Source: an uncultured bacterium (GTDB lineage: Bacteria; Acidobacteriota; Thermoanaerobaculia; Thermoanaerobaculales; Thermoanaerobaculaceae). Taken from it: 64,000 bases of DNA. Where the stretch lies: positions 1-64,000 of the forward strand of contig CALEVZ010000028.1 of assembly GCA_937924755.1 (NCBI GenBank). Reading direction: 5' to 3'. Shown here piece after piece: positions 35,538 through 50,899 of this stretch. Below the pieces are notes generated by a model that saw only the letters and a list, made by a program, of their open reading frames with translations, was not told the origin of the DNA and searched no databases. Position 1 is the first letter of the stretch. The number at the start of each line of letters is the position of its first letter. The position numbers and the translations under genes were made by a program.

Positions 35538-35976
35538 GTTGTCCACCACCGCCGCTCACGCCGTTCGTGCCCTCTTGTGCCTCACCCGTCAGGCCGTCGA
35601 CGCCCCGGTACTGGCCAAAGACCTGTCGGCCTGCGCCCAGGTGCCCATGAGCTACCTCTCCAAGATCCTCGCCATCCTTACGCGCGCCGGCCTCCTGCAG
35701 GCGGCGCGGGGCCTCAACGGAGGCTACCGGCTGGCGCGGCCCGCCGATCAGATCACCCTCTTCGAGGTGGTGGAGCTCTTCGACGGCCCGCAGAGTCAGG
35801 CGACGTGCCTGCTCGGGCCGCTGCACCACTGTTCCGACGACGACCCCTGCCCGGCTCATGGGCGCTGGCGGGGCGTGCGTGACACCTACCTGGAGTTTCT
35901 CCGCACCGTCACCCTCGACCAACTGCGCGGCCCCTTGCCGTGGGCGGCGACAGCGGCCACCGGGGAGTCGTCGTGA
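35536..35976 (+). CDS. Rrf2-family Fe-S transcriptional regulator
   Basis: A 146-residue regulator heading the operon. The winged helix is in residues 1-75 (STTAAHAVRALLCLTRQAVD, VPMSYLSKILAILTRAGLLQ and RGLNGGYRLARPADQITLFE). Three cysteines, C91, C99 and C105 (CLLGPLHHCSDDDPCPAHGRW), have the spacing of Rrf2 proteins that bind [2Fe-2S] or [4Fe-4S] clusters and sense redox state, NO or iron-sulphur supply. Its own start is inside the operator palindrome. The stop overlaps the next start (GTGA), so it is co-translated with the energy-metabolism genes it presumably controls. Confidence 0.9.
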   Translation: MLSTTAAHAVRALLCLTRQAVDAPVLAKDLSACAQVPMSYLSKILAILTRAGLLQAARGLNGGYRLARPADQITLFEVVELFDGPQSQATCLLGPLHHCSDDDPCPAHGRWRGVRDTYLEFLRTVTLDQLRGPLPWAATAATGESS

Positions 35977-37895
35977 GCGCCCGCTCTCACCCGCCGCTGC
36001 GCGTTGCCGTGCCCGGGGAGGGGTACCACCGGGACCTGATTTCCTGCCAGCAGGGCTGTCCGGTGCACACCGACGCCCGCGGCTACGTGCGCGCCATTGC
36101 CGCCGGCCGCTTCGAGGAGGCGTACCTGATCGCCCGCGGCCCCAACCCCTTCGCCTCCATCTGCGGGCGGGTATGCGGCGCGCCGTGCGAGGCCGCCTGT
36201 CGCCGCGGTCGCATCCCCCGGGTCGACGAGAGCGGCGCCTGGCTTGGCGACGATCGTCCCATCGCCATCCGCGCCTTGAAGCGCTTTGCCTGCGAACGAC
36301 ACGGGGTTGACGCTCACCCCCCGGAGGCGGTGTGGGAGGCGGTGCGCTCGTTCATCCCGGAGGTGGCGGCGGACGCCGAGGAGCTGGCCGCCCTGCTGCA
36401 CACCCGGGCCAGCCAGTTGCCGCGCGCCGGCGGCGAGCGGGTCGCCATCATCGGCGCCGGGCCGGCGGGGCTGTCGGCCGCCCATGATCTGGCCCTTCTG
36501 GGGTTTTCCCCCGTCGTCTTCGAAAGCGAGCCGGTGCCCGCCGGCATGCTCTACCTGGGGGTGCCGGCGTACCGCCTGCCGAGGGAAGTGATCCGCCGGG
36601 AAGTGGCGGTGATCGAGGCGCTGGGGGTGGAGATCCGCTGCTCTACCACGGTCGGCAAGGATGTTTCGTTTGCTCAGCTGCGCCGGGAGTTCGCCGCGGT
36701 GATCGTGGCGGTGGGGGCCAAGCGTTCGCGGTCGCTGGGGCTGCCCGGGGAGCACGGGCCGGGGGTGTTCGGGGGCGTCGATCTGCTGCGGGCGGCGGCT
36801 CTCGACCAGCCGTTCGAGCTGGGCTCGGAGGTGGTGGTGATCGGTGGCGGCAACGTCGCCTACGACGTGGCCCGCACCGTACTGCGGCAGGCCGCCTATG
36901 ACACCGCCCGCACCGCGGCCCGCCTGCCCGGGGTGCGGCGGGTACGCCTGGTGGCCCTGGAAACCCTCGAGGAGATGCCCGCCGACACGGTGGAAATCCT
37001 GGAAGGAGATGAGGAAGGGGTGGAGCGCCTGAACGGCTGGGGCCCGGTGGAGATCCTGCGGGACGACGGCCAGGTGAAGGGGGTGCTGTTTTGTCGCTGC
37101 CTCAAGGTGTACGACGAGCAGCGTCGCTTTTCGCCGGTGTTCGACCACTCCGACCGCCTCACCGTGCCCGCCGACACCGTGTTGCTGGCGGTCGGACAGA
37201 CCACCGAGCTGGGCTTCCTCGCCGACGGCGGGGCAGACGTGGAGCAGGCGCGCCCCGGGTGGCCCAAGGTGGATCCGGAGACACTGGCGACGAGCGCCCC
37301 CGGCGTCTTCGTCGCCGGCGACCTGGCCCACGGCACACGGCTGCTCATCGACGCGGTGGCCTCCGGCAAGCGTGCCGCCCGCTCGGTGTACCAGTACGTT
37401 ACCAGGCGCACCCTGCGGGCAGACTGGCATCAGGTGTTCGTCAAGCTGCCGGGATACGCCCGTGAGCTGGGGTACGAGGCCATCCCTCGGCACGATGTTC
37501 CCACCCTGCCCCCCGGCGACCGCCTCGCTGATCACACGGCTCTGGTGGAAATCGGCTTCAACCAGGAGGCGGCGCAGCGGGAGGCTTCCCGCTGCCTGGA
37601 CTGCGGAGTCACGCCGGTCTTCGACGGTACCCGCTGCGTGCTGTGTGGTGGCTGCGTCGACGTCTGCCCCACCGCCTGCCTGAAACTGGTGGCCCTCGCC
37701 GACCTCGAGCCGTCCCCAGCCCTGGCGGAGGTCGTCCGCTGGGCGCTCGGCGACGGCGTGGAGCCCGGCGAGCACTCCGCCATCCTCAAGGACGAGGATC
37801 GCTGCATCCGCTGCGCCCTGTGCGTCATGCGTTGTCCCACCGAGGCCATCGCCATGGAGCGCGTCACCTTCACCTGCCACTGGAGGGTTGCATGA
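35973..37895 (+). CDS. GltD-like NAD(P)/FAD oxidoreductase with extra [4Fe-4S] domain
   Basis: A 640-residue flavoprotein. The N-terminal Fe-S region matches the glutamate synthase small subunit (GRFEEAYLIARGPNPFASIC, then GRVCGAPCEAACRRG). The FAD site is VAIIGAGPAGLSAAHDLALL, the NAD(P) site VVVIGGGNVAYDVARTVLRQ, and PGVFVAGDLAHGTRLLIDAV is the second FAD motif. A C-terminal dicluster ferredoxin (CVLCGGCVDVCP and CIRCALCVMRCP) is added. No glutamine amidotransferase or synthase large subunit is nearby. Directly ahead of Rieske and cytochrome b genes, it probably links NAD(P)H or ferredoxin to that complex. Similar genes accompany Rieske/cytochrome b clusters in anammox bacteria, as I recall. 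Confidence 0.88.
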   Translation: MSARSHPPLRVAVPGEGYHRDLISCQQGCPVHTDARGYVRAIAAGRFEEAYLIARGPNPFASICGRVCGAPCEAACRRGRIPRVDESGAWLGDDRPIAIRALKRFACERHGVDAHPPEAVWEAVRSFIPEVAADAEELAALLHTRASQLPRAGGERVAIIGAGPAGLSAAHDLALLGFSPVVFESEPVPAGMLYLGVPAYRLPREVIRREVAVIEALGVEIRCSTTVGKDVSFAQLRREFAAVIVAVGAKRSRSLGLPGEHGPGVFGGVDLLRAAALDQPFELGSEVVVIGGGNVAYDVARTVLRQAAYDTARTAARLPGVRRVRLVALETLEEMPADTVEILEGDEEGVERLNGWGPVEILRDDGQVKGVLFCRCLKVYDEQRRFSPVFDHSDRLTVPADTVLLAVGQTTELGFLADGGADVEQARPGWPKVDPETLATSAPGVFVAGDLAHGTRLLIDAVASGKRAARSVYQYVTRRTLRADWHQVFVKLPGYARELGYEAIPRHDVPTLPPGDRLADHTALVEIGFNQEAAQREASRCLDCGVTPVFDGTRCVLCGGCVDVCPTACLKLVALADLEPSPALAEVVRWALGDGVEPGEHSAILKDEDRCIRCALCVMRCPTEAIAMERVTFTCHWRVA

Positions 37896-38386
37896 GCACC
37901 GCCCACCCCTCGCTTCCCCGCCGCTCTCGCCTGGACCCCGAGCCGGTGGCGCGTCGGGATTTCTTGGGCCTGGCCGCCCTGTGGTCCGCCGCCGCCGCGC
38001 TGGGCTTCGCCGCCCTGGGCGCCCTGCGCCTGCCCAAGGCGGCGGTGTTGCCTTCGCCGTCGAAGAAGTTCCGCGTCCATCTGCCGGAGTCCCTGGCGCC
38101 GGGGGAGGCCTACGTTCCTCCGGGGCGGTCGGTGGCGCTGTTCAAGGGCGCCGACGGCGTGTTCGCCATTTCCACCGTGTGCACGCACCTGGGCTGCATC
38201 GTCAAGCCGACTCCGCACGGCTTCGACTGCCCCTGTCACGGCTCCCGGTTCGCCCCCGACGGCTCGGTGGTGCGTGGCCCGGCACCGGCGCCGTTGCCCT
38301 GGCTGGCGGTCACCTCGGCAGGGGGGGGCAGCGTCATCGTCGACGAGGGAGCCAGCGTACCCCCGGGTACCAAGGTGGCGGTATGA
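37892..38386 (+). CDS. Rieske [2Fe-2S] protein
   Basis: A 164-residue Rieske protein. A Tat-like or anchoring N-terminus (LDPEPVARRDFLGLAALWSA) includes RRDFLG and one transmembrane helix. The Rieske fold has both cluster motifs, CTHLGCI and CPCHGSRF, with the conserved disulphide cysteines between them, and a C-terminal strand end. The four ligands (two His, two Cys) are intact, implying a high-potential cluster working with the adjacent cytochrome b. ATG overlaps the flavoprotein stop (ATGA). Confidence 0.93.
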   Translation: MSTAHPSLPRRSRLDPEPVARRDFLGLAALWSAAAALGFAALGALRLPKAAVLPSPSKKFRVHLPESLAPGEAYVPPGRSVALFKGADGVFAISTVCTHLGCIVKPTPHGFDCPCHGSRFAPDGSVVRGPAPAPLPWLAVTSAGGGSVIVDEGASVPPGTKVAV

Positions 38387-39933
38387 GCGCCAGGTCTTCC
38401 GACGACGGTCTCGCCCGACTCTGGGCCAACCTGCGCGCCGCCCCCCGCCGGCTGCGGGAAACCATGTTCCGCTCCGGCCCACCGGTGAGCGACCGCGCCC
38501 GCTCTTCCTTCATCTTCGGCAACGTCTTCCTGCACCTGCACCCGGCGAGAGTGCACCGCTGGAGCCTGCGTTGGGCCACCACCTGGGGACTGGGGATGAT
38601 CGCCCTGTCGGCGTTCCTCGTCACCCTCGTCACCGGCGTCCTGCTCATGTTCTACTACAAGCCCTACCCCGACGTGGCCTACGAGTCGATCAAAAACATC
38701 CACTTCGTCGTGCCCACCGGGCGGTTCATGCGCAACATCCACCGCTGGGCGGCGCACGTCATGGTCATCGCCGTGCTGGCGCACATGGCGCGGGTGTTCT
38801 TCACCGCCGCCTACCGCCGGCCGCGCGAGTTCAACTGGCTGATCGGCATGGGGTTGCTGGTGACCACCCTGGGGCTTTCCTTCTCCGGCTACCTGTTGCC
38901 CTGGGACCAGCTGGCCTACTGGGCCATCACCATCGGCGCCAACATCGCCCAGTCGCCGCGCGAAATCACCGATGCACTCGGGATCACGGCCTCGTTCGAC
39001 CCGGGGGGGCTGCAGAAACTGCTGCTGCTGGGCTCCGACGAGGTCGGCGAGGAAGCGCTGATCCGCTTCTACCTCTTCCACGTCATGCTGTTGCCGCTCA
39101 TCCTGGTAGCCCTCCTGGCGGTGCATTTCTGGCGCATCCGCAAGGACGGCGGACTGGCTCGTCCCGCCGACGCCGAGGCCCGTCTGGGGCCGCCGCACCC
39201 GGCCACCTATCCCGTTTTCACCGAGGCTCCCCAGAAGACCTACCACCTGGCTGCCGTCGTGCGGGGGCGCACCCCGGCGGTGGGCAACGGCCCGGAGGGT
39301 ACCGTCCCGGCCATGCCCCACCTCCTCTACGGCGAGCTGGCGTTGTTCATGCTGACCGTGGGCATCTGTCTCGTCCTGTCCGTCCTCTTCGACGCCCCCT
39401 TGAAGGAACTGGCCAACCCGGCGGTGCCGGAGAATCCCGCCAAGGCCCCCTGGTACTTCTTGGGCCTGCAGGAGTTGGTGTCCTTCTCCGCCTTCATGGG
39501 GGGCATCGGCATTCCCACCATGGTGCTCATCGGTCTGGGCCTGATCCCCTACCTGGACCGCGAGGAAGCGGGCACCGGGGAGTGGTTCGGCGGGCCCGGG
39601 GGCGGCGCCCTGGTGGGCCGGGCGGCGGTGTTCGGACTCACCACGGCGGTGGCCCTGGAGGCCTTGGCCATCCATTTTGGGTGGTTGCGGCAGTGGTGGC
39701 CGGAGGTGCCGCAACTGCTCATCACCGCCTTCAATCCAGGAACGGTGCTGACGGCCATCTACGCCGCCTACTCCCTGTGGCTGGTGCGTCGCCACAACTC
39801 CACCCGGGCCGGCGCCCTGGGGCTTTTCACCTGTTTTCTCGCCGGCTTCGTGGTGCTCACCGTGATCGGCACCTACTTCCGCGGCCCCAACTGGGAGTTC
39901 TACTGGTCCCCGACCCACTGGCCCGGACATTAG
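38383..39933 (+). CDS. Cytochrome b6/subunit IV fusion of a Rieske/b complex
   Basis: A 516-residue di-haem membrane cytochrome. The first half carries two haem-ligand pairs: NIHRWAAHVMVIAVLAH (H-x13-H) and FHVMLLPLILVALLAVH (H-x14-H, the b6-type spacing). GYLLPWDQLAYWA is the quinone-site helix. The second half has NPAKAPWYFLGLQE in place of the PEWY motif. The length shows b6 and subunit IV fused in one chain. It should oxidise or reduce quinone and exchange electrons with the Rieske protein. The ATG overlaps the Rieske stop (ATGA). Confidence 0.93.
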   Translation: MSARSSDDGLARLWANLRAAPRRLRETMFRSGPPVSDRARSSFIFGNVFLHLHPARVHRWSLRWATTWGLGMIALSAFLVTLVTGVLLMFYYKPYPDVAYESIKNIHFVVPTGRFMRNIHRWAAHVMVIAVLAHMARVFFTAAYRRPREFNWLIGMGLLVTTLGLSFSGYLLPWDQLAYWAITIGANIAQSPREITDALGITASFDPGGLQKLLLLGSDEVGEEALIRFYLFHVMLLPLILVALLAVHFWRIRKDGGLARPADAEARLGPPHPATYPVFTEAPQKTYHLAAVVRGRTPAVGNGPEGTVPAMPHLLYGELALFMLTVGICLVLSVLFDAPLKELANPAVPENPAKAPWYFLGLQELVSFSAFMGGIGIPTMVLIGLGLIPYLDREEAGTGEWFGGPGGGALVGRAAVFGLTTAVALEALAIHFGWLRQWWPEVPQLLITAFNPGTVLTAIYAAYSLWLVRRHNSTRAGALGLFTCFLAGFVVLTVIGTYFRGPNWEFYWSPTHWPGH

Positions 39934-39942
39934 AGGACGATC

Positions 39943-41676
39943 ATGCCTGCTCCCCACCCCTCGCCTTCTGCCACCCCACCCCGGTCAGCGCGTGGCGTGA
40001 CCTCGCACGCCAACAAAATCCTGCTGCTAGTGTCCTCCCTTGCCACCTTGGTGGTGCTGGGGTGGGCGGCCTTGGAAGAAAACCTCCTGCGCGACTGGCG
40101 GGTGATTCAGCGCAACTACGCTGCCGCCCTGCCCCCCGACGCCAAGGCCAGCTTCAACCCCCAGTTGCGGCAAATCATCGTCCCCGCGCTTCGGACCACC
40201 GACCGCTGCGTCACCTGCCACCTGGGTATGGCCCCCGGCGAGCAGGTGGTTCCGGGGCAGCGGCTGTTCGCGGCTCACCCACCCATTCCCCACGACCCGG
40301 GCGAGTTCGGCTGCGTGGTCTGCCACGGCGGCCAGGGCCTCGCCAGCGAGACCGCCGACGCCCACGGCACGGTGCCCCACTGGCCGGAGCCCCTGGTGCC
40401 GCGGCGCTACGCCCAGGCGGGGTGCGGGAGTTGCCACACCCACCTGAGAGTGCCCAATCTGGAACAGCTCCGCCTGGGTCAGGCGCTGCTCGAGCGGTAC
40501 GACTGCCTCGCCTGCCACGCGGTCGACGGCCGCGGCGGCACCCTCCGCCCCGGGGGTGCGGCGGGGTTGCCGGCGCCGGACCTCACTCTGGTCGGCGCGC
40601 GCGGCTACGACCCCGGTTGGTATGCGGGCCACCTCCGGTCGCACGCCGCCGCCGCGGCGGGACCGTGGCGCACCTCCTTCCGGCCGATCCCCGACGATGA
40701 GCGCGGCGCGCTGGCGGCTTTTTTGGACTCGCGCGTCGGCGCGCCCCAGCTCATCGAGGCCAAGGCGCTGTTCCACTCCCTGGGGTGCCGCGGTTGCCAC
40801 AAGGTGGGGGGGGTTGGCGGCGACGACGGTCCGGACCTGACAATCGCCGGCCAGCGCGACCCGGGCCAGACCTCCTTTGCCGGCGTGCCGGGGGAGCGGA
40901 GCCTGGCCCACTGGTTTGCCGAGCACTTCCGCAATCCCTCGGCGGTGGTGGCGGGCTCGCAGATGCCCGCCATGGGCTTGAGCGAAGAGGAGATCGACGC
41001 CCTTGTGCTGTTCACCTTTTCGTTGCGCCGCAGCCCGTTCCCGGAGGCGTACTGGCCCCGCGACCGTATCCGCTCCGAGCGCTTCGGCGAGCGGGAGTTC
41101 GCCACCGACGGCGCGACTCTCTACGGGACCTTCTGCGCCGCCTGTCACGGGCGTTCGGGGGAAGGGATGCGCTACCCCGGCATGACACCCTTTCCGGCCA
41201 TTGCCAACCCCGACTTTTTGGCCCTCGCCTCCGACGAGTTCTTGACCGCCGCCATAACCCGCGGCCGCCCCGGCCGGCGCATGCCCGCCTGGGGGGTAGG
41301 GGAGGGCGGCCTGCGCCCCGCCGAGATTGCCACCCTGGTCAACTGGCTGCGAAAGTCTTCGGGTGTTCAGCCCGAAAGAGATCCTCGCCCCCCGCGCTGG
41401 GTGAGGGGCGAAAGGAGCGAGGGCGAGCGGCTCTACCGAGCCGCCTGCAGCGGCTGCCACGGCCCCGCCGGAGAGGGGGCGGAGGGACCCGCCCTGGCCA
41501 ATCCGGTGTTCCTGTCCACCGCCTCGGATACTTACCTCGTGGAAACCATCGCCCGGGGACGACGCGGCACCACCATGGAGGGATTCACCCGCCCCTCCCC
41601 CACCCGCCGCGCCCTGGCCAGCTATGAGATTCACACCATCGTCGCCTTCATCCGTACCTGGGAGGCCAAGCCATGA
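39943..41676 (+). CDS. Membrane-anchored seven-haem cytochrome c
   Basis: A 577-residue protein with an N-terminal transmembrane anchor ([20 protein letters not shown], about residues 27-46) and seven CxxCH sites: CVTCH, CVVCH, CGSCH, CLACH, CRGCH, CAACH and CSGCH. The last three lie in class I cytochrome c-like modules (for example [14 protein letters not shown] and [13 protein letters not shown], with Met-rich distal stretches [11 protein letters not shown] and GTTMEGF). It replaces cytochrome c1 or f of a bc complex and should carry electrons between the Rieske/b part and the molybdoenzyme. Its stop overlaps the alpha-subunit ATG. Confidence 0.92.
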
Positions 41677-44600
41677 CCCCACCTCGACCGTCCCGCCGTC
41701 AATTCCTGAGCTCCGCCGCCGCGGCCGGTTTCGCCGGCTTCATCGCCTCCGCCACCCGGGCGTGGGGCCTGGGGGCCCTGGACAACCCTCTCGCCCACTA
41801 CCCGGACCGCGACTGGGAAAAGGTGTACCGCGACCTCTACAAATACGACGAAGTGTTCACCTTCCTTTGCGCTCCCAACGACACGCACAACTGCTTGCTC
41901 AATGCCTACGTGCGCGCGGGGGTAATCACCCGCATCGGTCCTACCATGAAGTACGGGCTGGCAACCGACTTGGACGGCAACCGCGCCTCCCACCGCTGGG
42001 ACCCGCGGGTGTGCCAGAAGGGGCTGGCCTTGACGCGGCGCTTCTATGGCGACCGGCGGGTGCGCCACCCCATGGTGCGCAAGGGGTTCAAGGCCTGGGT
42101 GGAGGCGGGCTTCCCCCGCGGCGCCGATGGCAAGCCCCCCAAGGAGTACTTCAACCGCGGCCGGGACGAGTGGGTTCGAGCCAGCCACGCCGAGGCGGCA
42201 GGCCTGGTGGCCGCCGCCCTGCATGACATCGCCGCCACTTACTCCGGTGAAGAGGGAGCGGCGAGGCTGCGCCGCCAGGGGTACGACGAGGAGATGATCG
42301 CCGTCATGAAGGGGGCAGGCACGCAGACCTTGAAGCTGCGAGGCGGCATGCCTCTTTTGGGGATCACGCGGGTGTTCGGCCTCTACCGCATGGCCAACAC
42401 CCTGGCGCTGCTGGACGCCCATATCCGGGGCATCGGTCCTGATGCGGCGCTGGGTGGACGCGGGTTCGACAACTACTCCTGGCACACCGACCTGCCGCCC
42501 GGCCACCCCATGGTAACCGGCCAGCAGACCGTGGAGTTTGACCTCAACGCCATCGAGCACAGCAAGATCGCCGTCATCTGGGGGATGAACTGGATCACCA
42601 CCAAGATGCCCGACGCCCACTGGCTCACCGAGGCGCGCCTGCAGGGCACCAGGATCGTGGTGATCGCCTGCGAGCTCTCGGCCACCTGCTGCAAGGCCGA
42701 CGAGGCCATCGTCGTGCGCCCCGGCACCACCCCGGCGCTCGCCCTCGGGCTGGCGCACGTAGTGATGCGGGAGCGCCTCTATGACGCCAGCTACGTGCGC
42801 CGCTTCACCGACCTGCCCTTGCTGGTGCGCTCCGACACCCTAGCCTACCTGCGCGCCGCCGACGTCTTCGCCACCCCCCCCAGCCCCCTCGCCAACCAGA
42901 CCAAGGTCCTGGCGAAGGGGGAAAAGGCGCCCCCCCCCGGCGTGCACAACGACATGCTCCTGCCCGCCGGCATGCGCGCAGAGTGGGGGGACCTGGTGTG
43001 GTGGGACCGCCGCGCCAACGCTCCCCGGGCCATCACCCGCGACCAGGTGGGCAAGCTGTCTCCGGTGGACGATCCGCTCCTGGAGGGGGCGGTGGACGTG
43101 CCCCTGGCGGCCGGGGGCACGGTGCGCTGCCGGCCTGTGTTCGACTTGCTCAAAGAATACACTGCCCACTTCGACCCCAAGACCGTGGAAGAGCTCACTT
43201 GGGCACCGGCGACGGCGGTGGAGCGGTTGGCGCGAGAAATTGCCGCCGTGCCGGGGCACACCCTGTTCGCCACCGGCATGGGGCCCAACCAGTTCTTCAA
43301 CAACGACAACAAGGACCGCGCCATCCTCCTGCTGGCTGCCTTGACCGGCAACATCGGCCGGCTGGGGGGCAACGTCGGGTCCTACGCCGGCAACTACCGC
43401 GTCGCCCTGTTCAATGGCGCCCCCCAGTACATCAACGAAAACCCCTTCGAGCCCGAGCTGGATGCCTCCAAGCCCGCCAAGGTGAAACAGTTCTGGCGCG
43501 CCGAATCGGCCCACTACTACAACCACGAGGACCACCCCCTGCGGGTGGGCCACCGCCTGCTCACCGGCAGCACTCACATGCCCGCCCCCACCAAGGCCAT
43601 GTGGTTCGCCAACGCCAACTCCATTCTGGGCAACGTCAAGTGGCACTACAACACGGTGATCAACGTGCTGCCCAAGATCGAAATGATCGCCGTCAACGAG
43701 TGGTGGTGGTCGGCCTCCTGCGAGTGGGCGGACGTGGTGTTCGCGGTGGACTCCTGGGCCGAGCTCAAGCATGCGGACATGACCGCTTCGGTCACCAACC
43801 CCTTCCTCAACGTCTTCCCCCGAACCCCGCTGAAGCGCATTTTCGAAACCATAGGGGACATCGAGGTTTTAGCGCTGGTGGGGGAAAAGCTCGCCGAGCG
43901 CACCGGCGATCGGCGCTTTGCCGACGCCTGGAAGTTTGTCCGGGAGGGGCGCACCGAGGTGTACCTCCAGCGGGTGCTGGACGCCTCCTCCAACACCCGC
44001 GGCTGGCGCATCGCCGAGCTGGAGGCCAAGGCCAAGCAAGGCATCCCGGCCATCATGCAAAATCGCACCTACCCCAAGGCGGTGGGGTTCGAGCAGGTGG
44101 AGGACTCCCGCCCCTGGTTCACCAAGTCGGGGCGGCTGGAGTTCTACCGCGAGGAGCCGGAGTTCATCGAGGCTGGCGAAAACCTGCCCGTGCACCGGGA
44201 ACCCATCGACTCCACCTTCTACGAACCCAACGTCATCGTCGCCCCGCCCATGGAGGTCATCCGCCCCGCCGGGCCGCGCGACTACGGCGTCGAGGACGAC
44301 GATCTCTCCTGCGAGGTGCGCCAGGGACGCAACGTGGTCAAGCCGTGGGCGGCGGTGAAGCAAACCGCCCACCCTCTGGCCAAGGAAGGCTACCGCTTCA
44401 TCTTTCACACCCCCAAGTACCGCCACGGTGCCCATACCACTCCCATCGACACCGACCAGATCGCCGTCCTGTTCGGCCCCTTCGGCGACATCTACCGGCG
44501 CGATGCCCGCTCCCCCTGGGTGGGGGAGGGGTACGTGGACATCAACCCCGACGACGCCCGCGAGCTGGGGATCGACGACGGCGACTACGTGTGGATCGAC

Positions 44601-45128
44601 TCCGACCCCTCCGATCGCCCCTTCCGCGGCTGGCAGAAGGACCGGCGCAACGCGGGATTTTCCCGGCTGCTGTGTCGCGCCCGCTTCTACCCCGGCACCC
44701 CCCGCGGGGTGACCCGCATGTGGTTCAACATGTACGCGGCCACCCCCGGCTCCCACGAGGGGCATACCACCCGCCCCGACGGTTTGGCCCGCAACCCCCG
44801 CACCGGCTACCAGGCCATGTTCCGCTCCGGTTCCCACCAGTCTGCCACCCGCGGCTGGCTCAAACCCACCTGGATGACCGATTCCTTGGTGCGCAAGGGA
44901 CTGTTTGGACAGGAGATCGGCACGGGGTTCCTGCCCGACGTACACTGCCCCACCGGCGCGCCGCGCGAGGCCATCGTCAAAATCACCCGCGCCGAGCCCG
45001 GCGGCCTGCAGGGCAAGGGGCGCTGGCGGCCGGTGGAACTGGGCTTGCGCCCCCGCTACGAGAACGAGGCGATGCGCCGCTACCTGGCCGGCGCCTTCGT
45101 CACCACCACCTCGGGAAAGGAAGGGTAA
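41673..45128 (+). CDS. Molybdopterin oxidoreductase alpha subunit, NarG/NxrA-like, Tat-exported
   Basis: An 1151-residue bis-MGD enzyme of the type II DMSO reductase group. Residues 5-30 are a Tat signal ([20 protein letters not shown]), so catalysis is periplasmic. The FS0 cluster region is [16 protein letters not shown] with later C114: ligands would be C66, D70, C74 and C114, Asp taking the place of the second NarG cysteine, preceded by N69 like NarG Asn52. The molybdenum ligand motif is [19 protein letters not shown] (D273). The closest relatives by motif are nitrate reductase/nitrite oxidoreductase alpha subunits. The substrate (nitrate or nitrite, selenate, chlorate or other) is not fixed by the sequence. 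Confidence 0.9.
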
Positions 45129-45132
45129 CGCC

Positions 45133-46260
<1,128 letters not shown>

Positions 46261-46279
46261 TCGGCAAGGAGAGCAAACC

Positions 46280-47128
46280 ATGCGCACCCTAGTCACCGTT
46301 GTTCTGGTCTTCCTCGTCATCGGCTGCGGAAGCAAGCCCCAGGCTCCCCTGCCCGAAGTCACCGCTTTCGCCCGCCCGGCGCTCCCCCAGGGATGCGAAG
46401 ACCCAGCCTGGCGGAGTGTGCCCGCCCACGTGGCGCCGTTGCTGCTGCAGGACCTGGTAGAGCCCCGGCAACTGGTCGCCACCACCGCGGCGGTCACCGT
46501 GCAGGCGGTGCATGACGGCTCCCGGGTCGCCTTCCGCCTCAGCTGGGCCGATCCCACCCACGACGATTCGCCCGGCGCCGCCCGGTTTTCCGACGCCTGT
46601 GCCGTGCAGCTACCCGCCGTCGCCGGCGCCGACCTGCCGGCTCCGCAAATGGGAGAGACCGGCCGCCCGGTGGAAATCACCGCCTGGCGGGCCTCTTGGC
46701 AGGCCAGCGTGGACGGTCGGGGGGACGACATGACCGCCCTCTACCCCCGGGCTCAGGTGGACCACTACCCCTTCACCGCGCCCTCCCTCGCGCCCGGCTC
46801 GCCGGAGCAGGAGGAGATGGCCCGCCGTTACGCCCCTGCCCGCGCCCTGGGCAACCCCATGGAGGGGCCCCGCAGCAGCCCGGTGGAGGACCTCGTCGCC
46901 GACGGGCCCGGAACCCTGCGACCCGCCCCCCGGGCGATGTCCACCGGCTCCGGCCGGCGCACCCGCGACGGCTGGACGGTGCAGCTCGTCCGGCCGCTGC
47001 CGGCGGGCGTCAGACCGGGGCAACGGGGGGCGGTGGCCTTCGCCGTCTGGGATGGGTCCCACGAAGAGGCCGGAGCGCGCAAGATGCGCACCGGCTGGGT
47101 GCCGCTGGCCATTGGCGAGGGCTCGTGA
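46280..47128 (+). CDS. Haem b gamma subunit, ethylbenzene-dehydrogenase-like lipoprotein
   Basis: A 282-residue periplasmic lipoprotein. The lipobox VFLVIGC gives a lipidated Cys16. The body matches the EbdC/ClrC/SerC haem-binding family: FRLSWADPTHDDS, QMGETGRPVEITAWRASWQ with candidate axial Met124, and a C-terminal AVWDGSHEEAGARKMRTGWV with candidate axial Lys268, as in the known Met/Lys-ligated haem b of EbdC. It would take electrons from the beta subunit to the multihaem cytochrome. The lipid anchor is unlike soluble EbdC and keeps the complex near the membrane. Confidence 0.83.
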   Translation: MRTLVTVVLVFLVIGCGSKPQAPLPEVTAFARPALPQGCEDPAWRSVPAHVAPLLLQDLVEPRQLVATTAAVTVQAVHDGSRVAFRLSWADPTHDDSPGAARFSDACAVQLPAVAGADLPAPQMGETGRPVEITAWRASWQASVDGRGDDMTALYPRAQVDHYPFTAPSLAPGSPEQEEMARRYAPARALGNPMEGPRSSPVEDLVADGPGTLRPAPRAMSTGSGRRTRDGWTVQLVRPLPAGVRPGQRGAVAFAVWDGSHEEAGARKMRTGWVPLAIGEGS

Positions 47129-47670
47129 GCGCATCGCTCCTCGCCGAAGCGGCGGCCTGGCGCCTGCTCTCCTGCCTGCTGGAGCGACCGCGTCAAGGCT
47201 GGCGGGAAGACATCCGGGCGCTCGCCGCCGAAGTTCCAGATGCGCCGCTCGCCTCCGCCGCCCGCCGGGTCGCCGAAGAGGGCAGTGAGGGCGCCTACCT
47301 CGCCGTCTTAGGACCGGGAGGACCCGTGTCGCCGCGCGAGGTGGCTTACCACCCCGATCGCGACCCGGCGACCATCCTGGCGCGGCTGCACACTCTCTAC
47401 CACGCCTTTGGCTTTCGGCCGGCGAGCGAAGACCCCCCCGATCACATCGCCGTGGAGCTGGGGTTCGGAGGCTTTCTGGCCCTCAAGCGGGCGTGGGTCA
47501 TCAGCCAGGGGGATGAGACGGCCCTGGCCACCGTGGAGTCGGCAGCCGAGCTTTTTCGGCGCGAGCACCTGGACCCCTTTGCCGCCGCCCTCGGTCAGCG
47601 GTTGGCCGCCGCCGACGGCTATCTTGCTTCCGTGGGGAGGGCTCTGCAGACGGTCAGCCGGATCGGTTGA
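47125..47670 (+). CDS. TorD/NarJ-like molybdoenzyme chaperone
   Basis: A 181-residue all-helical protein predicted to insert the cofactor and proofread the Tat signal of the alpha subunit. Weak but consistent TorD-family features are LLAEAAAWRLLSCLLERPRQ at the start, LHTLYHAFGFRP and DHIAVELGFGGFLALKRAWV (the conserved E-x3-(F/M) segment), and FRREHLDPFAAALGQRL. GTG start overlaps the gamma-subunit stop (GTGA). Position between the enzyme genes and moeA supports the call. Confidence 0.85.
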   Translation: MSASLLAEAAAWRLLSCLLERPRQGWREDIRALAAEVPDAPLASAARRVAEEGSEGAYLAVLGPGGPVSPREVAYHPDRDPATILARLHTLYHAFGFRPASEDPPDHIAVELGFGGFLALKRAWVISQGDETALATVESAAELFRREHLDPFAAALGQRLAAADGYLASVGRALQTVSRIG

Positions 47671-47702
47671 GCCGGACCACCGGGGACGGTAGTCTTTCGC
47701 CC

Positions 47703-48926
47703 ATGGTTTCCTTCGACGACGCCCGGGCCCTGTTGGCCAGCCGCGTCCAACCGCTGGCGGCGGCGCTCCGACCCCTGGCGGCGGCGCTGGGGTGCCGCCT
47801 GGCGGCGTCACCCCACGCCGCCGTGGACTACCCTGCCGCCGACGTCTCGGCCATGGACGGCTACGCCGTGCGGGGGGCCCAGCTGCCCGGGGAGTTCGGG
47901 GTGGCCTTCACCGCTTCGGCGGGGCATCCACCGAGTGCATTGCCGGCCGGGGCGGCCGCCCGCATCTTCACCGGTGCTCCCCTCCCGGTGGGGGCGGACA
48001 CGGTGGTGGTCCAGGAGGTCGCCGAGACGCTGGAGGGAGGTCGGGTGCGCCTGCCCGCCACCGCCCCGGGCGCCAACGTCCGCCGCCAGGGGGAGGTGTT
48101 CGCCGGCGGGACGGCGATCGCCGCGGCGGCGGAGGTCCTCACCCCCGCCCGCCTGGCCCTGCTGGCGGCAGCCGGGGTGGCGGACGTTGTGGTCACCCCC
48201 CGCCCCCGCCTGGGCCTGCTGGTGACGGGAGACGAGCTCACCCCTTTGGGGCAGCCGCTGGCGTTCGGCCACCTGTACGACTCCAACGGCCCCATGCTGG
48301 CGGCCCTGGCGGCGGAGGCGCACCTGGAGGTGACGGCGGTGCACCGGGTGGGGGACGAGCCGGTAGCGCTGCGGCAGGCCTTGGCGGGGCTGGCCGGCCA
48401 CTGCGACCTGCTGCTCACCTCCGGGGGGGTTTCGCAAGGAGAGCGGGACCTCCTGCCCCACCTCCTCCCCGAGTTGGGGGCAGAGCTGGCCTTCCACAAG
48501 GTGGCCATGCAGCCGACCAAACCCATCCTGGTGGCTCGCCTCCAGAACACCTGGGTGGTTGGGCTGCCCGGCAACCCGGTTTCCGCTCTGGTGGGGTGGC
48601 GCCTGTTCGCCCGCCCCCTGGCCGAGGCCCTGGCCGGCGACCGCCGGGCGTTCGCCGAGCGCCCACTCGCCGCCACCCTCGCCGCCCCCCTGGCCAGCCC
48701 CGCCAAGCGCCTGCTCCTCCGACCCGCCCGGGTGGCTTGGACGGGCACCCGCTGGGAGGTGGAGGTGATCCCCTGGCAGGGCTCGCACGACCTGGCCGCC
48801 GCCGCCCCCGCCACCGCCCTGGCCCGTCTGGAGCGGGGGCAAGGGGCCGCCGCGGGGGAGGTTGTGGCGGCTTACCCCCTTCCCTGGCCTGAATGGAACA
48901 TCGGTACCCGAGGCGTCGATGGGTAA
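47703..48926 (+). CDS. moeA: Molybdopterin molybdenumtransferase
   Basis: A 407-residue MoeA that inserts molybdate into adenylated molybdopterin. It has the PAADVSAMDGYAVRGAQLPG segment, FTGAPLPVGADTVVVQEVAE, LLVTGDELTPLGQPLAFGHL, YDSNGPMLAALA, LLLTSGGVSQGERDLL and KVAMQPTKPILVARLQNTWV with GLPGNPVSA. The ATG at 47703 is used; a TTG at 47667 overlapping the chaperone stop would couple translation and adds 12 residues. Being the second-last gene of the molybdoenzyme operon, it supplies a dedicated cofactor pathway. Confidence 0.93.
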   Translation: MVSFDDARALLASRVQPLAAALRPLAAALGCRLAASPHAAVDYPAADVSAMDGYAVRGAQLPGEFGVAFTASAGHPPSALPAGAAARIFTGAPLPVGADTVVVQEVAETLEGGRVRLPATAPGANVRRQGEVFAGGTAIAAAAEVLTPARLALLAAAGVADVVVTPRPRLGLLVTGDELTPLGQPLAFGHLYDSNGPMLAALAAEAHLEVTAVHRVGDEPVALRQALAGLAGHCDLLLTSGGVSQGERDLLPHLLPELGAELAFHKVAMQPTKPILVARLQNTWVVGLPGNPVSALVGWRLFARPLAEALAGDRRAFAERPLAATLAAPLASPAKRLLLRPARVAWTGTRWEVEVIPWQGSHDLAAAAPATALARLERGQGAAAGEVVAAYPLPWPEWNIGTRGVDG

Positions 48927-49479
48927 TGCGCACGGCGACAACCTTTTCCCGCTCATGAGCGCGGCGGTGCTCACCGTCTCCGACCGCTGCAGCGCCGGCA
49001 CCGCCGTGGACACCGCCGGGCCGGCCGCCGCCGCCCTCCTGCGCCAGTCGGGAGCCCAGGTGGTGTGGACGGGACTGGTGCCCGATGAAGCGGCCGTCAT
49101 CGCCGAGCGGCTGGTGGACCTTTGCCGGGACGGGATCGACCTGGTGCTGACTGTGGGGGGCACCGGCTTCGGTCCCCGGGACGTCACCCCCGAGGCCACC
49201 CGGGGGGTGCTGGAGCGGGAGGCGCCGGGCCTGGCCGAGGCCATGCGCCTGGGCTCCTCCGCCTCCACCCGCCGCGCCTTTCTCTCCCGGGCCGTTGTCG
49301 GGGTGCGGGGGTGCACCCTGATCGTCAACCTGCCCGGCAGCGAGGGGGCGGCCCGGGAAAATCTCCAGGCCATCCTGGACCTGCTCCCCCACGCGGTGGC
49401 CATGCTGCGGGGGGCGGCGCATTCCCACCTCGATTCACCCCGACCAGCGCCCACCGGCTCAGGGGAACAGCGGGGGTAG
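48919..49479 (+). CDS. mog: Molybdopterin adenylyltransferase-like protein (Mog/MoaB)
   Basis: About 186 residues; the MoaB/Mog fold activates molybdopterin with ATP before MoeA. Signature stretches are SAAVLTVSDRCSAGTAVDTA, LVLTVGGTGFGPRDVTPEAT and GVRGCTLIVNLPGSEGAARE. The start at 48919 overlaps the moeA stop and has GAGG upstream; ATG 48955 gives the more usual N-terminus and is equally possible. This is the last gene of the operon. Confidence 0.88.
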   Translation: MGNAHGDNLFPLMSAAVLTVSDRCSAGTAVDTAGPAAAALLRQSGAQVVWTGLVPDEAAVIAERLVDLCRDGIDLVLTVGGTGFGPRDVTPEATRGVLEREAPGLAEAMRLGSSASTRRAFLSRAVVGVRGCTLIVNLPGSEGAARENLQAILDLLPHAVAMLRGAAHSHLDSPRPAPTGSGEQRG

Positions 49480-49504: not shown

Positions 49505-50899
49505 GTGACCTTTCCCCCCTTCGAGCCCTACCGCAGCCGGGTAGTGGAGCCCATCCACCTGACTACCCCCGAAGAGCGCGCTGGCCACCTGGCCGAGGCC
49601 GGCTATAACCCCTTTCTGCTCAAGGCGGAGCAAGTGATGATCGACCTCGTGACCGACTCCGGAACCTCGGCGTTGTCCGTGGCCCAGTGGGCGGCCATGC
49701 ACGGCTCCGATGAGTCGTTCACCGGCTCTGCGAGCTTCGAGCGCTTTGCGGCGGCGGCCCGGGAACTCTTCGGGCACCCCCACATCATCCCCTGCCACCA
49801 GGGGCGGGCTGGCGAGCACCTGCTGGCCCGGGCGGTTCTGCACCCCGGGGATGTGGTGCTGGCCAACACCCTTTTCGCCACCACCCGGCAAAACTTCGAG
49901 GAGGCCGGGGCTCACTGCCAGGACCTGCCGATCGCGGAGGCTCTCGACGTGGGCAGCCGCCACCCCTTCAAGGGCAACATTCACCTGGAGCGTCTGGCCG
50001 ACTACCTCTCCCGGCGCGAGGAGGCGGTCAAGCTGGTGGTCCTCACCGTCACCGACAACGCCCGCGGCGGCCAGCCGGTCTCCCTGGCCAACCTGCGCGC
50101 GGCCGCCGAGTTGTGTGCTCGCCACGGCGCCCCTCTGTGGCTGGACGCCGCGCGGGTGGCGGAGAACTGCTATCTCATCCGGGAGCGGGAAGAGGGGCAG
50201 GGTGACCGCGCTCCGGTGGAGGTCGCCCGGGAGGTGTTCTCCCTGGTGGATGGCCTCTTCATGAGCATGAAGAAGGACGGCCTCGGCAACGTGGGCGGGG
50301 TGATCTCCTGCCGCGATGCCGCCTGGGCCGAGGCCATTCGCTCCCGCCTGCTGGTCTCCGAGGGGATCCCCACCGCCGGGGGCCTGGCCGGCCGCGACCT
50401 GGAGTGCATGCGGGTGGCCCTCCACGAAATGTTCGACACAGCCCACCTGGCGTGGCGGGTGGGGGCCACCCAGCGCTTCGCCCAGCTCCTGCTCGCCGGC
50501 GGCGTACCGGTGCTGGAGCCGGTGGGGGCCCACGCCGTCTACGTGGACGGCCGCGCCTTTTGCCCCCACCTCCCCGACGAGCAGTTCCCCGCCTGGTCCC
50601 TCTCCGCCGCCTACTACCTGGCCAGTGGGGTGCGCAGCTGGGAGTCGGGCAACGTCACCTACGGCCGCCTGGACCCCGTCACCGGCCGCTGGCGCTGGCC
50701 GGAGCTCGATCTGCTGCGCCTGGCCATCCCTCGCCGGGTGTACTCCGACGCCCACCTGGCCTTCGCCGCCCGGGCCCTGGTGGAGCTCCACGCCCACCGC
50801 CAACGGGTACGGGGGCTGCGTTGCACCTACCGACCCCCGGCTCTGCCCCAGTTCATCGCCCGCTTCACCCCCGTGGAGAGCGGCGATGGGGTAGCATAG
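49505..50899 (+). CDS. Tryptophanase/tyrosine phenol-lyase-like PLP beta-eliminating lyase
   Basis: A 464-residue PLP enzyme of the tryptophanase family, with YNPFLLKAEQVMIDLVTDSG, FGHPHIIPCHQGRAGEHLLA, LTVTDNARGGQPVSLANLRA, PLWLDAARVAENCYLI and the PLP-Lys segment FMSMKKDGLGN (probably K257). The family's catalytic Tyr (E. coli Tyr74 of tryptophanase, in the DExYxGSR segment) is Phe72 here (DESFTGSASF), and the following Arg is also missing. Substrate may therefore not be tryptophan or tyrosine. GTG start with GAGGAGG upstream, 26 bases after mog. Confidence 0.83.
   Translation: MTFPPFEPYRSRVVEPIHLTTPEERAGHLAEAGYNPFLLKAEQVMIDLVTDSGTSALSVAQWAAMHGSDESFTGSASFERFAAAARELFGHPHIIPCHQGRAGEHLLARAVLHPGDVVLANTLFATTRQNFEEAGAHCQDLPIAEALDVGSRHPFKGNIHLERLADYLSRREEAVKLVVLTVTDNARGGQPVSLANLRAAAELCARHGAPLWLDAARVAENCYLIREREEGQGDRAPVEVAREVFSLVDGLFMSMKKDGLGNVGGVISCRDAAWAEAIRSRLLVSEGIPTAGGLAGRDLECMRVALHEMFDTAHLAWRVGATQRFAQLLLAGGVPVLEPVGAHAVYVDGRAFCPHLPDEQFPAWSLSAAYYLASGVRSWESGNVTYGRLDPVTGRWRWPELDLLRLAIPRRVYSDAHLAFAARALVELHAHRQRVRGLRCTYRPPALPQFIARFTPVESGDGVA

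Follow-up and report, generated by a model that had tools for sequence, protein, structure and literature searches.

A fixed operon linking a sister lineage of Kuenenia-type nitrite oxidoreductase to a Rieske/cytochrome b complex and an NAD(P)-linked flavoprotein in Acidobacteriota and other bacteria

We have found that genes for a molybdenum enzyme of the nitrite oxidoreductase (NXR) type, its own bc-type (Rieske/cytochrome b) complex and an NAD(P)-linked flavoprotein form one fixed operon, which is carried by many unrelated soil and groundwater bacteria. The operon was studied in a 64,000-nt stretch of DNA, the window (GenBank assembly GCA_937924755.1, contig CALEVZ010000028.1, positions 1 to 64,000), from an uncultured bacterium of the Thermoanaerobaculaceae (Acidobacteriota), where its catalytic alpha subunit is encoded at 41673..45128 of the forward strand. 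The window enzyme is probably a periplasmic nitrate/nitrite oxidoreductase of alpha-beta-gamma composition, sister to the Kuenenia-type NXR, that would act as a quinol-fed nitrate reductase with its own Rieske/cytochrome b complex. The locus had drawn attention through an aspartate predicted to bind the iron-sulfur (FeS) cluster FS0 of alpha; the operon is of more interest than this ligand. No published description of such an operon was found in a literature search without most subscription journals, including specialised Rieske/cytochrome b reviews.

Eight genes, all on the forward strand, make up the conserved core. A GltD-like NAD(P)/FAD-[FeS] protein bearing conserved clusters of Cys at either end (35940..37895, start codon uncertain) is followed by a Rieske [2Fe-2S] protein with the motifs CTHLGC and CPCHGS (37892..38386), a cytochrome b that joins the b6 and subunit-IV parts in one chain (38383..39933) and a 7-heme (CxxCH) cytochrome c of 577 amino acids (aa; 39943..41676). 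Next come alpha, a beta subunit whose 15 conserved Cys suffice for three [4Fe-4S] clusters and one [3Fe-4S] cluster (45133..46260), a gamma subunit with an EB_dh heme-b domain, a lipobox-like signal (LVIGC) and Met134 and Lys278 as predicted heme ligands (46250..47128), and a TorD/NarJ-type chaperone (47125..47670). Most neighbouring operon genes in the window overlap or nearly do so. The order and strand of these eight genes are intact in 44 of the 48 loci with enough flank that belong to the lineage of the window alpha, termed clade A below, and the residues for the Rieske cluster, hemes b and c, FeS clusters and gamma heme are essentially invariant in the partner subunits of relatives. Of 297 acidobacterial genomes, 20 encode a cytochrome b that shares 70% identity or more with that of the window, and all 20 also carry a clade-A alpha. 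No homologue of the Rieske protein, cytochrome b or flavoprotein was present within ~5 kb in the loci of the sister lineage, clade B, which contains Kuenenia NxrA. The Rieske/cytochrome b complex is thus most likely dedicated to the clade-A enzyme, with alpha-beta-gamma predicted to dock to it. Two details of the cytochrome b deserve mention in their own right. It has KAPWY where canonical complexes have PEWY, and the extended motif KAPWYF (window 39442-39459) is identical in 66 of 66 relatives; in addition, three nearly invariant N-terminal His could bind an extra heme.

The alpha open reading frame is unbroken and encodes 1151 aa with a twin-arginine translocation (Tat) signal, SRRQFL, and a protein of the molybdenum bis(molybdopterin guanine dinucleotide) (Mo-bisMGD) type II DMSO reductase family. 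The FS0 motif C66-A-P-N69-D70-T-H-N-C74 lies at 41868..41894 (codons beginning at 41868 for C66, 41877 for N69, 41880 for D70 and 41892 for C74), with N69 as the substrate-side Asn. The fourth ligand, Cys114, is at 42012..42014, and the Mo motif Y268-S-W-H271-T-D273 is at 42474..42491 (H271 at 42483, D273 at 42489). The preliminary description had put Asp70 in the column of the second ligand Cys of NarG, Cys66 in its His column and His271 in place of Tyr220, and alignment with canonical NarG of related genomes, which reads RSTHGVNCTGSC and FYDWYCD at the columns of the two motifs, confirmed each placement. It had also held that the Mo ligand Asp273 is kept, and this residue indeed aligns with NarG Asp222 and Kuenenia Asp275. 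The combination of D70/C66 and H271, against His/3Cys and Tyr220, does set the protein apart from cytoplasmic NarG, as had been proposed. C66, P68, N69, D70, T71, H72, N73, C74, C114, W270, H271, T272 and D273 are invariant across 22 aligned homologues, which rules out a chance motif, and nearly all of ~80 clade loci, from several phyla, share the Asp-type motif.

The best match of alpha in the Protein Data Bank is NxrA of the anammox bacterium Kuenenia stuttgartiensis (7b04; E 7.8e-271, 41% identity), in which the homologous positions, read from a sequence taken from alignments, are C67, N70, D71, C75, C115, H273 and D275. In the crystal structure of this NXR, FS0 has 3Cys/1Asp ligation through Asp71 (PMC8387239), the homologue of Asp70, and this agrees with the earlier assignment of Asp70 as a ligand; by the same homology, FS0 of the window alpha is most likely held by Cys66, Asp70, Cys74 and Cys114. 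On the alignments, Mo would be bound by Asp273, and the Asp/3Cys plus Asp273 set is a fixed state of the family. The set had also been called unusual, and here the preliminary description does not stand: the FS0 ligands are published for the Kuenenia enzyme, which likewise has His at the Tyr220 position, and NXRs and nitrate reductases are known to have 3Cys/1Asp or 3Cys/1His ligation of FS0 by lineage (PMC8387239). A finding named beforehand as one that would refute that view, the same ligands held constant by a clade of known substrate, is indeed made here for the nitrate/nitrite couple. The Asp ligand is therefore established knowledge and a family trait, not a peculiarity of the window protein, and it is silent on reaction direction because it is common to a nitrite-oxidising enzyme. 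A natural ligand variant was seen in one Kuenenia-type NxrA homologue from an acidobacterial genome (L121:5014-8496, G050), where Cys replaces the FS0 Asp (CSPNCTHEC).

Family placement was examined with a quick maximum-likelihood tree, which has long branches and was built without references from Nitrospira, Nitrospina, Nitrotoga and Hydrogenobacter. It resolves two sister clades, each with an approximate likelihood-ratio support (SH-aLRT) of 100. The window alpha falls outside the Kuenenia NxrA clade and in clade A, together with sequences from Acidobacteriota, Planctomycetota, Myxococcota/Deltaproteobacteria, Actinomycetota, Verrucomicrobiota and others, the phylum labels being those of metagenome-assembled genome titles, in which binning errors are possible. 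Clade B comprises Kuenenia NxrA and acidobacterial proteins 62-69% identical to it. The traits of the type II family (an Asp Mo ligand, D273, in Y-4x-D-11x-Q, a beta subunit with four FeS clusters, a heme-b gamma subunit and a TorD-like chaperone) are all present, as are those of Kuenenia/Nitrospira-type NXR (3Cys/1Asp FS0, substrate Asn and WHxD). The window alpha scores 300.8 bits against TIGR03479 (DMSO_red_II_alp), below the curated cut-off of 984.75, and 149 bits against TIGR01580 (NarG), below 1084; it lacks the His/3Cys FS0 and Tyr220 of the latter, and NarG homologues in this comparison are at most 27% identical to it. Published work places the NXR of Nitrotoga and the periplasmic nitrate reductase of Hydrogenobacter in a sister lineage of the Kuenenia/Nitrospira type whose members are mostly uncharacterised (PMC6050957), and Nitrotoga and Hydrogenobaculum proteins are ~40% identical to Kuenenia NxrA (PMC8387239). 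The 41% identity of the window alpha to Kuenenia NxrA is near this value, their sequences being outside our tree. Related Planctomycetota sequences have been proposed as NxrA, with the direction left open (PMC10732223). Among the genomes sampled from the family to which the window belongs, none has a close copy of the alpha, and one genome of the order has a full copy; this patchy distribution suggests horizontal transfer or repeated loss. No 16S rRNA gene was found in the window's genome; its acidobacterial affiliation agrees with a genome of the same class (G264) whose locus matches an Acidobacteria metagenome-assembled genome (L069).

At the base of clade A stands a haloarchaeal sequence from a Natronococcus occultus plasmid (L094:9001-12380). 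This clade-A-like alpha is seemingly frame-disrupted near its N-terminus and missing from the PLSDB gene table, and no Rieske or cytochrome b gene is annotated beside it. Kuenenia-type alphas (62-69% identical) occur in 16 of the 297 sampled acidobacterial genomes (L118-L125), none with NrfA, and their hosts may be unrecognised nitrite oxidisers. Kuenenia NxrA as a query gave no match in viral_contigs.

The residues, the operon, their conservation and the tree were observed directly; reaction direction and complex formation, like FS0 ligation, are inferred. In the proposed scheme, quinol would be oxidised by the Rieske/cytochrome b complex, and the high-potential electron would pass from the Rieske protein through the 7-heme cytochrome c, the gamma heme b, the beta FeS chain and Asp-ligated FS0 to Mo, where nitrate would be reduced to nitrite; NrfA, where present, would convert nitrite to ammonium. 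The low-potential electron may pass to the cytoplasmic flavoprotein, making NAD(P)H, although this coupling is speculative. Quinol-bifurcating NAD(P)H formation has been proposed for two Kuenenia Rieske/cytochrome b complexes that include an NAD(P) oxidoreductase, to which the flavoprotein is the counterpart (PMC12954380). With potentials of +433 mV for nitrate/nitrite and -80 mV for menaquinone, as given in PMC4683180, and of -320 mV for NAD(P) (PMC12954380), our own arithmetic makes the two branches favourable when summed (+513 mV vs -240 mV). A functional precedent for the first branch is given by haloarchaeal nar operons with Rieske/cytochrome b genes, for which antimycin-sensitive nitrate reduction is described (PMC4683180). 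It is possible, but still doubtful, that the operon represents a widespread machine in which a dedicated Rieske/cytochrome b complex splits quinol electrons, one to nitrate through an NXR-type enzyme and one to NAD(P)H through the flavoprotein, on a chassis with different Mo enzymes by lineage.

Support for nitrate reduction comes from NrfA, which is encoded in 17 of 23 acidobacterial genomes with a clade-A alpha versus 61 of 274 without (Fisher p 8e-7), and, counted by genus, in 13 of 18 versus 28 of 149 (p 8e-6). It was found in none of 16 acidobacterial genomes with a clade-B alpha, four of which have NirK-like matches. NrfA is also encoded in the genome that contains the window, and searches of that genome turned up no RuBisCO and no NirK. 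The association supports, as a correlation, nitrate reduction followed by ammonification in clade A. In one genome (G308) the NrfA gene is situated downstream of the module's alpha, ~5 kb away, and in another (G065) the two share a contig; with none near the module in other loci, NrfA was rejected as a fixed operon member. Several points weigh against this reading. The co-occurrence test controls kinship crudely, through the genus-level count; NrfA is present in only 9 of 29 non-acidobacterial carriers, a figure with no background rate for comparison; the host has an aa3 oxidase, with which the reverse direction is possible; and a NapA-like protein of the host (755 aa, below the NapA cut-off) could supply NrfA, which rules out the clade-A enzyme as the sole nitrate reductase candidate. 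Nitrite is oxidised both by the closest enzyme of known structure and by Nitrotoga NXR, from the published sister lineage of the Kuenenia type, and NAD(P) reduction is still only a proposal even for the Kuenenia complexes. The NapA-like gene (G000:C28:144253-146505) lies outside the window, elsewhere on its contig.

An enzyme running as a nitrite oxidoreductase would send nitrite electrons through gamma and cytochrome c to the aa3 oxidase, with the Rieske/cytochrome b-flavoprotein module reversed to make NAD(P)H. This is unlikely, in our view, even though the closest solved relative is an NXR, the host has the oxidase, Nitrotoga NXR belongs to a clade that is sister to the Kuenenia type (PMC6050957) and Planctomycetota relatives have been proposed as NxrA (PMC10732223). 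The association with NrfA is strong for clade A but nil for the Kuenenia-type clade, the alpha is absent from most relatives, and a dedicated quinol-oxidising complex fits electron delivery to the enzyme; RuBisCO, the one CO2 fixation route covered by our search, was not found in the host.

The quinol-fed nitrate reductase must also be weighed against an enzyme that naturally acts on another compound, such as chlorate, perchlorate, selenate or an organic C-H substrate, since the same kind of chassis carries another alpha in some genomes. The next closest cytochrome b proteins (59-60%) belong to four acidobacterial genomes with no clade-A alpha. Three of these were inspected (L144-L146) and encode, in the same order, a flavoprotein, Rieske protein, cytochrome b, multiheme cytochrome c, alpha, beta, gamma-like and chaperone-like protein. 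Their alphas (921-923 aa) are PcrA/NarG-like and have the classical His/3Cys plus Tyr set (RSTHSANCTGSC and FYDWYCD); that of L144 matches perchlorate reductase at E 7e-295 and scores 1179 against TIGR03479, above the cut-off. FS0 ligand type thus follows the alpha lineage and not the electron-transfer partner, because the chassis also carries a His-ligated, Tyr-containing alpha. Soil contigs have also been reported in which chlorite dismutase is found next to pNxr-like genes (PMC9751292). Another substrate is nevertheless improbable for the window enzyme, given the NrfA association and the invariant N69, the substrate-side Asn of nitrate/nitrite enzymes that is Ile in ethylbenzene dehydrogenase (PMC8387239). 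That Asp70 is not a ligand, with FS0 held by three Cys and water or another residue, or being a [3Fe-4S] cluster, is very hard to reconcile with the invariance of D70 and with 41% identity to 7b04, whose near-identical flanking motif holds the ligand Asp71, although an AlphaFold2 model of alpha (22 homologues; mean pLDDT 51, below 50 around FS0) was uninformative at FS0 and was set aside.

In metagenomes, clade-A genes can readily be annotated as nxrA or narG. The distribution of NrfA sets these genes apart from the Kuenenia-type NXRs that other Acidobacteriota encode, and is a reason not to score clade-A carriers as nitrite oxidisers. If the proposed NAD(P)H-forming Rieske/cytochrome b chemistry is true, it extends to many more organisms, possibly cultivable ones, and the paired modules, with an Asp/His or a His/Tyr alpha on one kind of chassis, offer a natural comparison for the role of the FS0 ligand.

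Downstream of the chaperone gene, and overlapping it, the forward strand encodes MoeA for molybdenum insertion (47667..48926), followed by a MogA/MoaB-like molybdopterin adenylyltransferase (48862..49479, start uncertain). A beta-eliminating, tryptophanase-like lyase (49505-50899) adjoins these molybdenum cofactor genes on the downstream side.

Among known systems, Kuenenia NXR-ABC (7b04) shares with the window enzyme the Cys/Asp/Cys/Cys FS0, the substrate Asn, the His before the Mo-binding Asp, the FeS chain in beta and a heme-b gamma with Met and Lys; it differs in its modest identity, its separate clade and the lack of Rieske, cytochrome b and flavoprotein genes near the Kuenenia-type loci examined. 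The Nitrotoga NxrA/Hydrogenobacter thermophilus lineage, according to published descriptions, is also periplasmic and sister to the Kuenenia/Nitrospira type; Nitrotoga NxrC has no transmembrane helix, and Nitrotoga reads Y-4x-D-11x-QM where the window has QT. Escherichia coli NarGHI is likewise a type II Mo enzyme with an Asp Mo ligand and the same overall FeS chain, but has a His/3Cys FS0 and Tyr220, is cytoplasmic and uses the membrane subunit NarI. The haloarchaeal nar operons (pNar) similarly encode an outward-facing Nar with a Rieske/cytochrome b pair that feeds quinol electrons to nitrate; most haloarchaeal NarG, however, have a His/3Cys FS0, and no NAD(P)/FAD-[FeS] gene is reported in the text consulted. 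The Kuenenia complexes Kustd1480-1485 and Kuste4569-4574 resemble the window by gene content, and their traits (Rieske motif, b6-like cytochrome b, multiheme cytochrome c and NAD(P)/FAD-[FeS] subunit) are present together in its operon. Those complexes have cytochrome b and subunit IV as separate proteins, where the window has one chain, and on the positive side they carry hexa- and octaheme cytochromes and an HAO-like protein, whereas the window operon encodes an NXR-type alpha-beta-gamma enzyme.

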